The notes below the pieces were generated by a model that saw only the letters and a list, made by a program, of their open reading frames with translations, had not been told where the DNA came from and ran no database searches. The translations under genes were made by a program, and so were the position numbers. 37,742 nucleotides of DNA from Herbinix sp. (lineage in GTDB: Bacteria; Bacillota; Clostridia; Lachnospirales; Lachnospiraceae), in NCBI GenBank assembly GCA_028701595.1, contig JAQVQL010000003.1, forward strand, positions 1 to 37,742, in the 5' to 3' direction. How positions within the stretch are numbered: position 1 is the first letter of the stretch; each line of letters opens with the position of its first letter. Positions 18,760 through 27,496 of the stretch are shown here, one piece after another.

Positions 18760-20385
18760 ATGTGCGCACGGATGAATTATAGGATATGTAAAGAATGTGG
18801 TTCGGAAATTGATCGAGAAGTACTTGATGAATATTACTCAATATGTCCTACATGTGGAAATTATTTGCGAGTTCATGCAAAAAAAAGAATTGAAATGTTG
18901 GCAGATGCAAAAAGCTTTCATGAATGGGATACTAGTGTTGAATTGAATATTTCTGATTTGGATGAAAATTATTTAAAAAAATTAAAAGATAATTTTCAAA
19001 AACATAAATTACATGAGGCGGTGCTCATAGGCGAGATAGAGATAAATGGGATTAGAACTGCAATTGGTGTAATGGATACGAGATTCATGATGGCAACTAT
19101 GGGACATGCAGAAGGAGAAAAAGTTACTTGCTTATTTGAAAAAGCAACAAAAAAGAAATTATCAGTTATAATGTTTTGCTGTTCTGGTGGAGCACGTATG
19201 CAAGAGGGAATAATCTCTCTGATGCAAATGAGTAAAACAGCTGCAGCAGTGAAAAAACATAGTAAAGCGGGATTACTATATTTATCTGTATTGACAAACC
19301 CGACAATGGGAGGAGTAACAGCTAGCTTTGCTATGTTAGCAGATATTATTTTGGCTGAAAAAGAAGCATTAATTGGATTTGCAGGTCGCAGAGTGATAGA
19401 ACAGAACATAGGTGAAGTATTGCCAGATGGATTTCAGTCAGCTGAGTTTCAACTCGAACATGGTTTTATTGATATGATTGTGGAACGGTATGAGCTAAAA
19501 GACAATTTGTATAATCTTTTAAAGTTACATACTTCAAAAAAAAGTGGTAAGTATTTGAGAAGAGATGTGGAGCAAGCAGAGAATAGATTATTTACTTCAA
19601 GGATACAAGCATGGGAGAGGGTGAAAATCGCTCGGGCACATGATAGACCAACAAGTAAAAATTATATTGAACATATCTTTGAGAATTTTGTTGAGCTACG
19701 AGGTGATAGAGTATCAGAAGATGATCATGCAGTAATTGCAGGAATTGCTAAAATTCATGGACAGAACATAACGGTAATTGGACAAGAAAAAGGAAAAAAG
19801 AATCTAGATGATGCTATTTACAGAAATTGGGGAATGACATCGCCGAGTGGATATAGAAAGATTATGCGAATGATGATACAGGCAGAAAAGTTTGGACGCC
19901 CTATATTATGTTTTGTCGATACAATTGGTGCTGCTTGCGGAAAAAAGGCCGAAGGGGAGGGACAAGGGCTAGTAATTGCTAAAGTTCTAGAATTAGTATC
20001 GGATATGAATGTTCCAATAGTCTCTATTATTATAGGAGAAGCATGTAGTGGAGGCGCACTTGCACTTAGCATGGGCAATGAGGTATGGATGCTAGAGAAT
20101 TCTGTATACTCAATATTATCTCCTGAGGGATATGCAAGCATATTATGGAGGGATAATACAAGAGCAGAAGAAGCAGCGAAGCAAATGAAGTTGGAAGCTA
20201 AGGACTTATATCGTTGTAAGGTAATAGATAAGATTATTAGTGAAAAAGTTCCAGTAACAGTTAACAATATGGGTGATACTTGCAAACAAATTAGTGATGA
20301 GATTGCACGTTTCCTTAAAGACTATAAAAATAAGAGCGAATTATATATAAAAAAGGAACGATATGAGAAATACAGAAAATTTTAA
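18760..20385 (+). CDS. accDA: Fused acetyl-CoA carboxylase carboxyltransferase, beta-alpha (AccD-AccA)
   Basis: A 541-residue protein that joins the two carboxyltransferase subunits. The N-terminal half is AccD-like: a four-Cys zinc ribbon (C10, C13, C29, C32), then CCSGGARMQEG and NPTMGGVTASFAM. The C-terminal half (from about 270) is AccA-like: HDRPTSKNYIEHIFENF, ELRGDR, FVDTIGAACGKKAEGEGQG, GEACSGGALAL, SPEGYASILW. It transfers carboxyl from biotin to acetyl-CoA, making malonyl-CoA. No biotin carboxylase (AccC) or biotin carrier (AccB) is near, so it must use partners from elsewhere. Lying between the exporter block and the phosphopantetheinyl transferase, it looks like a cluster-dedicated supply of malonyl-CoA, implying a polyketide step. 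A primary fatty-acid role is the alternative. Confidence 0.88.
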   Translation: MCARMNYRICKECGSEIDREVLDEYYSICPTCGNYLRVHAKKRIEMLADAKSFHEWDTSVELNISDLDENYLKKLKDNFQKHKLHEAVLIGEIEINGIRTAIGVMDTRFMMATMGHAEGEKVTCLFEKATKKKLSVIMFCCSGGARMQEGIISLMQMSKTAAAVKKHSKAGLLYLSVLTNPTMGGVTASFAMLADIILAEKEALIGFAGRRVIEQNIGEVLPDGFQSAEFQLEHGFIDMIVERYELKDNLYNLLKLHTSKKSGKYLRRDVEQAENRLFTSRIQAWERVKIARAHDRPTSKNYIEHIFENFVELRGDRVSEDDHAVIAGIAKIHGQNITVIGQEKGKKNLDDAIYRNWGMTSPSGYRKIMRMMIQAEKFGRPILCFVDTIGAACGKKAEGEGQGLVIAKVLELVSDMNVPIVSIIIGEACSGGALALSMGNEVWMLENSVYSILSPEGYASILWRDNTRAEEAAKQMKLEAKDLYRCKVIDKIISEKVPVTVNNMGDTCKQISDEIARFLKDYKNKSELYIKKERYEKYRKF

Positions 20386-21269: not shown

Positions 21270-22642
21270 GGGACTATCCCAAAGTTTGTGTAAACCTTCA
21301 AACTGATGAAAAATAATATTGCTCAGTTTGGAGGTTTTATTTTATGGCGAAAAGAAGAAGGGATGAGTCTCCCGAAAGACAAGCTCTACGTGAAAAGATC
21401 GGTGGATATCTCAAAGAAAATCCGGTCAAAGATGGAAAGGACATCAATGCCATGATGAGGGACATGATGTCGGTCATACTTGAAGAAAGCTTAGATGGTG
21501 AAATGGACGAAGATCTTGGTTATTCCATATACGACTATCATAATAAGCAGACAGATAATAGCAGAAACGGATATACCACAAAAACCATGCATACCAGCTA
21601 TGGAGATATGGATCTCGATGTTCCGAGAGATCGTAAGGGGGAGTTTGGACCACAGATTGTAAAAAAATATCAAAATACCATCTGTCAGGACATGGAGGAA
21701 AAGATTATATCCATGTATGCGAAAGGTATGACAACTGGTGATATCGAAAGTCATATGCAAGAACTATACGGAGTAGACATCTCTGACAGTACCATAAGTC
21801 ATATTACGGATAAGATACTACCAATTGTTAAAGAATGGCAGGAACGACCATTGGAAGAGATCTATGCAGTAGTTTTCATGGATGCGATACATTTTCATGT
21901 CAGAAGCGAAGGACGTATAGTGAAACGTGCAGTATATATTGCTATTGGCATTGACATGACTGGCAGAAAAGATGTTCTCGGTATGTATGTAGGTGAAAAT
22001 GAAAGTGCTAAGTTCTGGCTCTCCATTATGAACGGCTTGAAGAATCGCGGCGTAAGGGATGTCTTAATTGCCTGTGTAGACGGACTCACTGGCTTCCCTC
22101 AGGCAATAGATGCTGTATTCCCCAAGACGGAAATACAGTGGTGTATCATTCACCAAATTCGTAACACTACGAAGTTTGTTTCCTACAAGGATATCAAAGT
22201 TCTTATGGCTGATTTAAAACGTGTTTATGCTGCTCCGTCAGAAGAGATTGACCTGAAGTAGATTGATTCATTCGAAGGGAAATGGCCTCAAAAATATCCA
22301 AAGATATCAAAGACTTGGAGAGACAACTGGGTAAATCTTTCAACGTATTTTAAGTATCTAGAAGCCATCTGAAGAATTATATACATCACCAATGCCATCG
22401 AGGGATTTAACCGACAGCTTCGAAAAGTAACAAAAAGTAAGACAACATTTCCGTCCGATGACAGCCTTTTAAAAATGCTCTACCTTGCAACGATGGACAT
22501 TACAAAGAAATGGATTGGGCACAGCCAGGATTGGGGCCAGATTCACTCACAATTAGAGATTTATTTTGAAGAGCGGTTATCCTAGTAAATGAATATATCA
22601 TGGTATTTCTGGCTGCCAGAGGGGAGTTTTACTTGACATCCC
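21270..22642 (+). mobile_element. IS256-family insertion sequence, inactive
   Basis: A transposase reading frame with two in-frame stops lies between a left end starting GGGACTATCCCAAAG (from 21270) and a possible degenerate right end near 22621-22642 (on the minus strand GGGGATGTCAAGTAAAAC). The two ends match only loosely, so the borders are approximate and I could not identify a target-site duplication. The element separates the biosynthetic cluster from the genes to its right. Confidence 0.6.
21344..22585 (+). pseudogene. IS256-family transposase with two in-frame stops
   Basis: The first 305 codons encode a typical mutator-type transposase with the catalytic Asp180 (VVFMDAIHFH) and Asp246 (IACVDGLTGF), and a CIIHQIRN segment. 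A TAG follows at 22259-22261. The same frame then continues with clear family sequence (SFEGKWPQKYPKI, KTWRDNWVNLSTYF), meets a TGA at 22370-22372 where Arg (CGA) is usual, and goes on with TNAIEGFNRQLRK, which carries the catalytic Glu, to a natural TAG at 22583-22585. The catalytic Glu is therefore lost from the translated product. There is no frameshift, only nonsense changes. Confidence 0.9.
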
Positions 22643-25517: not shown

Positions 25518-25691
25518 ATCCTTTAATATTCTCCCATATGTTCTCTGACATCTATATCTGATTTCTGACTAGATAGAAATAGGTTGTTTATATTGATAAT
25601 AACATATTATCACATTTTATAGGGTAAAAGTGACAAACTTGTGTTGATTTATATTGGATTGTAATTTAATATACAAATAAGTGAATTGCAT

Positions 25692-25716
25692 ATCAGTGGT
25701 TGCATAAATGCAACTG
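25692..25716. promoter_or_regulatory. Dyad operator candidate upstream of the XRE-DUF5680 gene
   Basis: GTTGCAT (25699-25705) and ATGCAAC (25708-25714) are perfect arms around AA. The symmetry extends outward through ATCAG and CTGAT with a 3-nt bulge on the left. It lies about 35 nt before the likely -10 box and is a natural binding site for the HTH protein encoded just downstream. Confidence 0.5.
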
Positions 25717-25744
25717 ATAGATAATGGTATGGTATATATAGGCC

Positions 25745-25753
25745 TGATATAAT
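25745..25753 (+). promoter_or_regulatory. Extended -10 promoter
   Basis: TGATATAAT contains a consensus TATAAT (25748-25753) preceded by TG at the extended -10 position. No good -35 box is seen. The start codon of the XRE-DUF5680 gene follows about 30 nt later with GGGAGG as ribosome site. Confidence 0.5.
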
Positions 25754-25784
25754 TATAGATATAATCGTCAGGGAGGTAGTAATT

Positions 25785-26459
25785 ATGATTTTTTCAGAAA
25801 AACTTGTACTTATTAGGAAAAACAAAGGCTATTCACAGGAGGAGCTGGCAGAAGCGCTTGATGTATCACGTCAGGCTATTGCAAAATGGGAAAGCGGACA
25901 AAGCTATCCGGAGATTTTTAACCTTATTGCGCTTAGTAGCTTGTTTAATGTAACAATCGATTATCTGGTTAAGGATAAGGATGGTTGTATGCTAAAGCCA
26001 ATTGAACAGAATTCTTATGTTATCGATGAACTGAGAGAATTTCTGTTAAAGGCTAAGAATAAAACCTATGCTGGAAAGGGTGCCGAGAGCTCGCCCTCAA
26101 GACCGCTTTCACATGACTTCAGATATGAGGAGAATGACTTGCTTTATATTGACACTTATCTCGGGGGAGAGTGTTTCTCGGGAGAAGAGGCCGTATGGAA
26201 AGATAGTGTTCCAATCTGGGCAATGAATTACAGTGGAAGAGTTATAGGAGAGAATTTTAGCGGAGATTTTCTAAAGTCAGCATTAAGAGAGGTTCCATAT
26301 GACAAACCATATCGAGGTCCTTCATATTTTCAGGATGGAGATTATGTGTATGTTTGTAAGGTTGATGGCACGTTTGAGTGGTATCAGGGATATGAAGAGA
26401 TAATGTATCAGGATGTAAAAATCTATGAGTGTTTTTTCCATGGTGGAAAAATAAAATAG
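25785..26459 (+). CDS. XRE-family regulator with C-terminal DUF5680 domain
   Basis: A 224-residue protein with an N-terminal HTH_3 domain (LVLIRKNKGYSQEELAEAL, VSRQAIAKWESGQSYPE, FNVTIDYLV) and a C-terminal DUF5680 domain (about 82-224; FLLKAKNKTYAGKG, RPLSHDFRYEEND, LYIDTYLGGECFSGEEA, WAMNYSGRV, GPSYFQDGDYVY, WYQGYEEI, CFFHGG). The C-terminal domain is a conserved sensor-like module of unknown ligand. The DNA-binding part probably acts on the dyad in front of the gene. The next gene, a small membrane protein, starts 32 nt later on the same strand and is likely its operon partner. Confidence 0.9.
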   Translation: MIFSEKLVLIRKNKGYSQEELAEALDVSRQAIAKWESGQSYPEIFNLIALSSLFNVTIDYLVKDKDGCMLKPIEQNSYVIDELREFLLKAKNKTYAGKGAESSPSRPLSHDFRYEENDLLYIDTYLGGECFSGEEAVWKDSVPIWAMNYSGRVIGENFSGDFLKSALREVPYDKPYRGPSYFQDGDYVYVCKVDGTFEWYQGYEEIMYQDVKIYECFFHGGKIK

Positions 26460-26491
26460 GCAATAGAGCCTATAGCTGAAGGGAGCTTTTA

Positions 26492-26797
26492 ATGGTGTCA
26501 AAAAGACATAGGAAAATAATTGTTGCATTAACGATTATTACAACTATAATTACAATAGTTAGTGCCTCATGGGAATTTATAATGCGTATCTATATACAAT
26601 ATAGATTTCAAATTAGTAGAGACAATTATAACAGTTCAAGCTCAATAGGAATTATCGGTGGAGCAGATGGACCTACAGCTATATTTCTTAGTGGCAAACA
26701 ATATTCAAGCATAGTAACTTTAGTATTTGCGCTTTTATCAGCCCTAGGTATTATATATCTAATTCTTACAAGTAAGAGGAACTGTAGGCAAAAATGA
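26492..26797 (+). CDS. Small membrane protein with the GGADGPT motif of Na+-pump decarboxylase beta subunits
   Basis: A 101-residue protein with two hydrophobic helices (about 9-30 and 73-93), a basic N-terminus, and between them SIGIIGGADGPTAIFLSG (51-68). The same GIIGGADGPT block is a hallmark of oxaloacetate, methylmalonyl-CoA and glutaconyl-CoA decarboxylase beta subunits, where its Asp lies in the Na+ path, but those proteins are about 370-430 residues with nine or more helices. Here only the motif and its flanks are present. GGGAG precedes the ATG. It follows the XRE-DUF5680 gene. It cannot be a decarboxylase subunit as such; function unknown. It is intact and has its own start, so it is not simply a fragment. 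Confidence 0.8.
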   Translation: MVSKRHRKIIVALTIITTIITIVSASWEFIMRIYIQYRFQISRDNYNSSSSIGIIGGADGPTAIFLSGKQYSSIVTLVFALLSALGIIYLILTSKRNCRQK

Positions 26798-27177: not shown

Positions 27178-27496
27178 ATGGCAAACATTGAATATTCACC
27201 TAAAGCACTAGAGGATTTACAATCTTTACGTGATTATATTACTGAAAATTGGGGAGAGTCTGTCTCGGAGAGAATATTAAGAAAGATTATTTTGGATATT
27301 AGAAGATTGGAGAAGTATCCGTTATTAAGGGTGAATTTATCTAAGCAAATAGATACCCCAACAGATTATCACTATATATATAGAAAAGAATTATGTTTTC
27401 TACCATTTAGAACTTGATAAAATTAGGATTGTACGTATTCTAAATGAGCAGCAGGATTATATGATGCAATTATTTGGAATAAATTCAGAATCTTAA
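27178..27496 (+). pseudogene. RelE/ParE-family toxin gene with a frameshift
   Basis: The first 79 codons encode a RelE/ParE-type toxin (IEYSPKALEDLQSLRDYI, RLEKYPLLRVNL, TDYHYIYRKE) but the frame ends early at 27415-27417. From about 27385 the +1 frame supplies the missing end: YVFYHLELDKIRIVRILNEQ then DYMMQLFG and TAA at 27494-27496, a normal RelE/ParE C-terminus. One extra base in AGAAAAGAATTATG accounts for the shift. The truncated product lacks the last beta strands and catalytic end, so it is probably inactive unless the extra base is a sequencing error. Confidence 0.85.

Follow-up and report, generated by a model that had tools for sequence, protein, structure and literature searches.

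The window, that is, the whole 37,742-nucleotide stretch of Herbinix sp. DNA that was analysed, carries at 26492-26797 (+) an open reading frame (ORF) that starts with ATG and encodes a 101-residue protein with two predicted membrane helices. By hydropathy, the first helix spans residues 9-27 (26516-26572, +) and the second residues 74-92 (26711-26767, +), and the AlphaFold model places helices at residues 4-46 and 72-100. Between these hydrophobic segments lies a GGADGPT-bearing peptide, called the module here, which profile and PDB matches and a comparison across hosts assign to residues 51-69 (SIGIIGGADGPTAIFLSGK; 26642-26698, +) and which begins with SIGIIGGADGPTAIF (residues 51-65). Because the N- and C-termini are both basic (net +4 each), both ends of the protein are predicted to lie inside, and the module would form an extracytoplasmic loop. 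In the AlphaFold model the module is non-helical and of low confidence, and a fold search of this model against the PDB returned no match.

A Shine-Dalgarno-like AGGGAG, read in the sequence at 26480-26485 (+), stands 6 nt before the ATG. Upstream, across an intergenic gap of 32 nt, Pfam identifies an XRE-DUF5680 transcriptional regulator at 25785-26459 (+), which has 224 residues and consists of XRE HTH_3 and DUF5680 (E 6.8e-34). The composite dyad TATCAGTgGTTGCATaaATGCAACTGATA (25691-25719, unstranded) precedes the regulator gene as its possible operator, and is only partly kept in G016, the closest syntenic species. The first-pass annotation had described a motif between two helices of a small protein, a ribosome site belonging to that protein's own gene, and a regulator with a dyad directly upstream, and each of these elements is borne out here.

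The neighbours of the small gene are DUF5680, Phd/ParE, and MATE genes, and decarboxylase subunits are not among them. Within the Phd-ParE pair, the gene for the ParE-family toxin (27178-27417) is apparently frameshifted: the end of its homologue from G016, which is intact, is found in another frame in the window. Farther upstream, 144-21188 is predicted to be a peptide natural-product cluster, with an NRPS of 3646 residues accompanied by a thioesterase, ABC exporters, and a phosphopantetheinyl transferase; an AccD-AccA-like fused carboxyltransferase is located inside it (18760-20385). A transposase-like ORF (21344-22261), of IS256 type by eye and seemingly truncated, lies between the NRPS cluster and an amidase gene.

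The first-pass annotation also paired the 101-residue protein with the DUF5680 regulator, and this pairing is not upheld. A DUF5680 gene scores over the cut-off in 16 of 34 genomes of the genus, and it is near the small gene in only two of those 16, the window species and G016. It is very improbable that the regulator controls the 101-residue protein as its effector: the two genes are adjacent on the same strand in the window and also close in G016, but an acetyltransferase gene intervenes in G016, the genes are not together in the 14 other DUF5680-bearing genomes, and most module proteins stand beside other neighbours. The downstream MATE gene, present in each of the four closest species, looks to be a matter of simple synteny.

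Relationship to the decarboxylase sodium pump

In the decarboxylase beta subunits OadB, MmdB, and GcdB (PF03977, TIGR01109), a peptide identical to that of the 101-residue protein occurs at the tip of hairpin 1, including the Na+-binding Asp203 (PMC7274780). In Salmonella OadB, this tip belongs to a helical hairpin, and Na+ binding requires Asp203, which is essential, as well as Ser382 of hairpin 2 (PMC7274780). The 101-residue protein matches Pfam OAD_beta with an E-value of 8.5e-07, over profile positions 108-154 only, and OadB of PDB entry 6IVA with an E-value of 1.9e-05, in an alignment to 6IVA residues 192-235 that contains the hairpin 1 tip GGADGPT with Asp203. Given these E-values and the reversed-pattern control described below, the resemblance of the motif to OadB is not due to chance. 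Nevertheless, the protein falls below the family cut-offs, with 28.8 against 31.6 bits for PF03977 and 27.7 against 190.6 bits for TIGR01109. The pump subunits have about 380 residues, 10 TM helices, and two hairpins, whereas the small protein has about 100 residues, two predicted TM helices, and no hairpin 2. The small protein lacks the other half of the sodium site of OadB, namely hairpin 2 with Ser382, and Asn412. Since only the first half of the site is present, the predicted anatomy would exclude pumping by the 101-residue protein, and Na+ binding by this protein unaided is unlikely.

Two full-length OadB genes are located on other contigs of the same genome. Profile comparison with the module masked detected no similarity to OadB outside the module, and an origin as an excised T4-H1-T5 unit of OadB was rejected on this comparison (probability 0.1%). 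Recent copying from the oadB of the same genome is not convincing either, as third-base identity is 32% to the genome's own OadB and 28% to other OadB.

The 101-residue protein is real and under selection. Twelve full-length relatives were aligned to it. Across 34 genomes of the genus, BLAST recovered relatives equal to it in length, one genome having three, and Defluviitalea (L099) and Geosporobacter (L298) possess members of the same subfamily of about 97 residues. When the window gene is compared with its nearest relatives, those of G016 and G014, dN/dS is about 0.3. These observations bear on whether the gene is a decaying oadB remnant or a functionless mobile coding repeat, for which it may be said that OAD_beta is the sole database similarity. 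However, the dN/dS value, the full-length relatives in two other genera, the conservation of the peptide between module copies whose third bases are scrambled, and the lack of OadB similarity beyond the module render decay or selfish insertion extremely improbable. The first-pass annotation had proposed a self-standing use of the motif outside the decarboxylase beta subunit and had named homologues that are mostly beta-subunit fragments as the finding that would speak against it. The homologues instead form a full-length family of about 100 residues, and the proposal gains support from the small membrane protein itself and from the non-OadB carriers described below.

A peptide module in clostridial proteins

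The module has a consensus of about 18 residues, [IV]x[IV]IGGADGPT[SA][IV]F[LIV]AG[KR]. A degenerate DNA pattern run over public genomes retrieved 95 OadB and 26 other proteins with the same peptide. A further pattern, designed so as to miss most OadB and controlled by its reversed form, matched in 25 of 396 genomes of the family (reversed pattern, 0 of 396) and in 9 of 300 genomes of the phylum (reversed pattern, 1). Pattern scans, BLAST, and profile matches together gave 73 distinct non-OadB module proteins. With the module masked, these sort into 36 clusters, many of which contain one short protein each, its TM helices having diverged too far for grouping. Judged by sequence, the motif is an autonomous module of about 18 residues used in many unrelated proteins of Clostridia. 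Partial OAD_beta matches in small non-OadB frames all fall on the hairpin 1 region, barring contig-edge fragments and weak matches in proteins of about 330 residues. The latter match OAD_beta positions of approximately 170-270 in many genomes (e.g., G000:C317:11082-11279) and may be another transporter family.

Spread by phages or plasmids was considered and rejected, as the PHTL protein (see below) had no match in phages and a miniprotein had none in plasmids; four IMG/VR stretches that match the module may be host flanks. Weak holin- and LPXTG-like profile matches were likewise set aside, being due to the hydrophobic tail.

Pfam assigns names to hosts of the M56/BlaR1, HAAS, DUF6449/ABC-2, PlsY, Lgt, rhodanese, and DUF4825 families. 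Further hosts are a lipoprotein, secreted proteins, a multi-TM family with an N-terminal module, membrane miniproteins of 47-100 residues, and two soluble families, PHTL (a name given here) and a 333-residue family with a degenerate copy. The module lies outside complete host domains, which cover profile positions 2-240 of 240 in Lgt, 2-295 of 296 in M56, and 1-164 of 164 in PlsY. In the rhodaneses, 3 of 15 readable relatives, the three closest, carry the module and the distant ones are without it; the module is thus optional in at least one host family. The folded domain of the PHTL model is well predicted, with the module in a tail predicted to be disordered (pLDDT about 40), and a fold search of this model against the PDB gave nothing with E < 0.1.

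Several individual hosts may be recorded here. The PHTL domain and module are fused behind Lgt in L096 (6264-7718) and behind an apparent glutamine amidotransferase in L317. The M56/BlaR1 proteins of four genomes (L211, L273, L274, L275) have the module immediately behind the final TM helix of the prediction and ahead of the extracytoplasmic region. The HAAS protein of L224 (1173-1913) contains a second, degenerate copy directly before the good one (AIIGGTDSATSISVIGGADGPTSIYLAG). In the soluble family of about 333 residues (L199-L204, L134, L195), the degenerate module is near the C-terminus, and two copies have lost the Asp.

Conservation among the 73 proteins extends beyond the search core, with Ile before GG in 69, Phe or Tyr in 70, Gly in 58, and a terminal Lys or Arg in 46, whereas the invariance of the core itself is by construction, GxxDGPT being part of the search patterns. 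For this reason, PHTL relatives found without using the motif were checked, and all seven that are readable have an N-terminal module, with D-x-P-T-S kept and the IGG part varying. Between module copies, mean amino-acid identity is 76%, compared with 29% at the fourfold-degenerate third bases of identical residues, and selection therefore acts on the peptide and not on the DNA. The scrambled third bases also led to the rejection of a DNA- or RNA-level element, as did the family-level pattern matches, every one of which lies inside an ORF in the same frame. Rickettsia palindromic elements are coding repeats in unrelated genes. They likewise place the same peptide in many unrelated ORFs; the module differs from them in that its synonymous sites are randomised and its frame is constant, which again argues for selection on the peptide.

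In 57 of the 73 proteins, the module is at most 35 residues from a predicted TM helix (median 6), and most of the remaining 16 are soluble PHTL or 333-residue proteins. The miniproteins with one TM helix have a neutral or acidic N-terminus and, in nearly all, a basic C-terminus, so that their module is predicted to be outside. Overall, the module is found mostly next to a membrane anchor, on what is predicted to be the outer face. The first-pass annotation had proposed tabulating neighbours as a check on the regulator link. The DUF5680 link is not conserved. The neighbour genes of module proteins differ almost everywhere, so that the proposed partner of the module is not encoded next door, and no receptor or partner candidate was found among the genes adjoining module genes.

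Candidate roles of the module

The explanation we put forward, with somewhat less than even confidence, is that the module acts as a linear docking tag to which a single conserved partner binds in trans. The 101-residue protein would then be a minimal carrier of the autonomous peptide of about 18 residues. The partner would recognise the tag, usually sited beside a membrane anchor, and the two-TM protein would show it on the outer face of the membrane, where it may serve as an adaptor, an anchor, or a competitor for the partner. Identity with the hairpin 1 tip would mean either that OadB was the source of the tag or that OadB, too, is contacted by the partner. As in docking motifs, the peptide is conserved in unrelated hosts (36 clusters) and found in a disordered tail in PHTL. 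That the domains of the hosts are complete, with the module outside them, favours docking, as does the retention of the module by PHTL although its predicted position is a disordered tail beside a folded domain. On the other hand, two soluble host families place the module in the cytoplasm, where a single extracytoplasmic partner could not bind it, and the presence of the same peptide within the membrane-embedded ion site of OadB points to a structural role in preference to docking.

This structural role leads to a second reading, in which the module folds back into the membrane as hairpin 1 does in OadB and takes up Na+ (or H+) through its Asp, perhaps as part of an oligomer, altering the host as an ion or potential sensor. 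Most hosts are membrane proteins, several of them sensors (M56/BlaR1, HAAS), the Asp is kept in 7/7 readable PHTL relatives that were found without using the motif, many basic residues flank the PHTL copies, as expected of a membrane-touching segment, and in OadB the same peptide bears the essential Asp203 at its hairpin 1 tip (PMC7274780). We consider this reading unlikely but a genuine contender, as Na+ binding in OadB needs Ser382 of hairpin 2, for which there is no counterpart, no fold resembling hairpin 1 is seen in the AlphaFold models, where the module has low confidence, and soluble proteins carry it too.

It is improbable that module copies mimic OadB, inserting into or competing with the decarboxylase Na+ pump to assemble, tether, or regulate it. 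OadB is present in almost all module-bearing genomes, but it is in nearly all genomes of the family anyway, and module proteins occur without an OadB match in G057 (93% complete), G403 (83%), and G727, these genomes being incomplete. The peptide is near identical to hairpin 1 of the host OadB, including the Lachnospiraceae variant SIFLAGK; still, the match of the module to OadB is no closer within a genome than between genomes (13.7 vs 13.5 of 18). We think that a docking tag is most likely, followed by a membrane or ion-sensing segment and then by an OadB mimic.

A membrane anchor or signal peptide adjoins many copies, and a conserved peptide in variable carriers has the look of a processed signal, so that the module might be cleaved, modified, or released as a shared extracellular signal. 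This too is a rather doubtful account, since the position ranges from the N-terminus to the middle, cytoplasmic hosts are included, and no conserved protease, exporter, or receptor gene is nearby. Sorting and anchor tags such as LPXTG-type signals, and short linear motifs in general, are likewise short conserved peptides in unrelated proteins, often beside a membrane anchor. In contrast to these, the module has no fixed terminal position and no known receptor or enzyme, and is predicted on both the outer and the cytoplasmic sides.

Apart from OAD_beta-type models, which it matches below cut-off, Pfam and NCBIfam contain no model of the module, and its motif strings were not found in the open-access literature searched, subscription journals and preprints being outside the scope. 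Outside the proteins described here, the peptide is known only from bacterial sodium pumps, and the module points to an undescribed reusable protein tag in gut-type Clostridia. We would put at about even the broader statement that Clostridia own an undescribed promiscuous module, identical to the hairpin tip in the ion site of their decarboxylase sodium pump and carried by miniproteins standing alone as well as by envelope sensors, enzymes of lipid metabolism, lipoproteins, and soluble proteins, which is read by a common receptor or by sodium or membrane state. A peptide essential to a sodium pump stands, under strong selection at the peptide level, in dozens of unrelated proteins, including BlaR1-type sensors and core lipid enzymes of common gut bacteria, and its reader, once found, could bring to light a system for sorting, docking, or sodium sensing that is new.

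Many miniproteins that are likely misnamed 'decarboxylase beta subunit' would also be corrected. Known bacterial membrane microproteins, with a single or hairpin TM, likewise have 47-101 residues, one or two TM helices, and basic tails inside, whereas module carriers are defined by a shared loop peptide that is found in large multidomain proteins too. In G002, two tandem copies of the two-TM protein occur (L049, 5851-6474), the first of which is without the IGG half and keeps DGPT.
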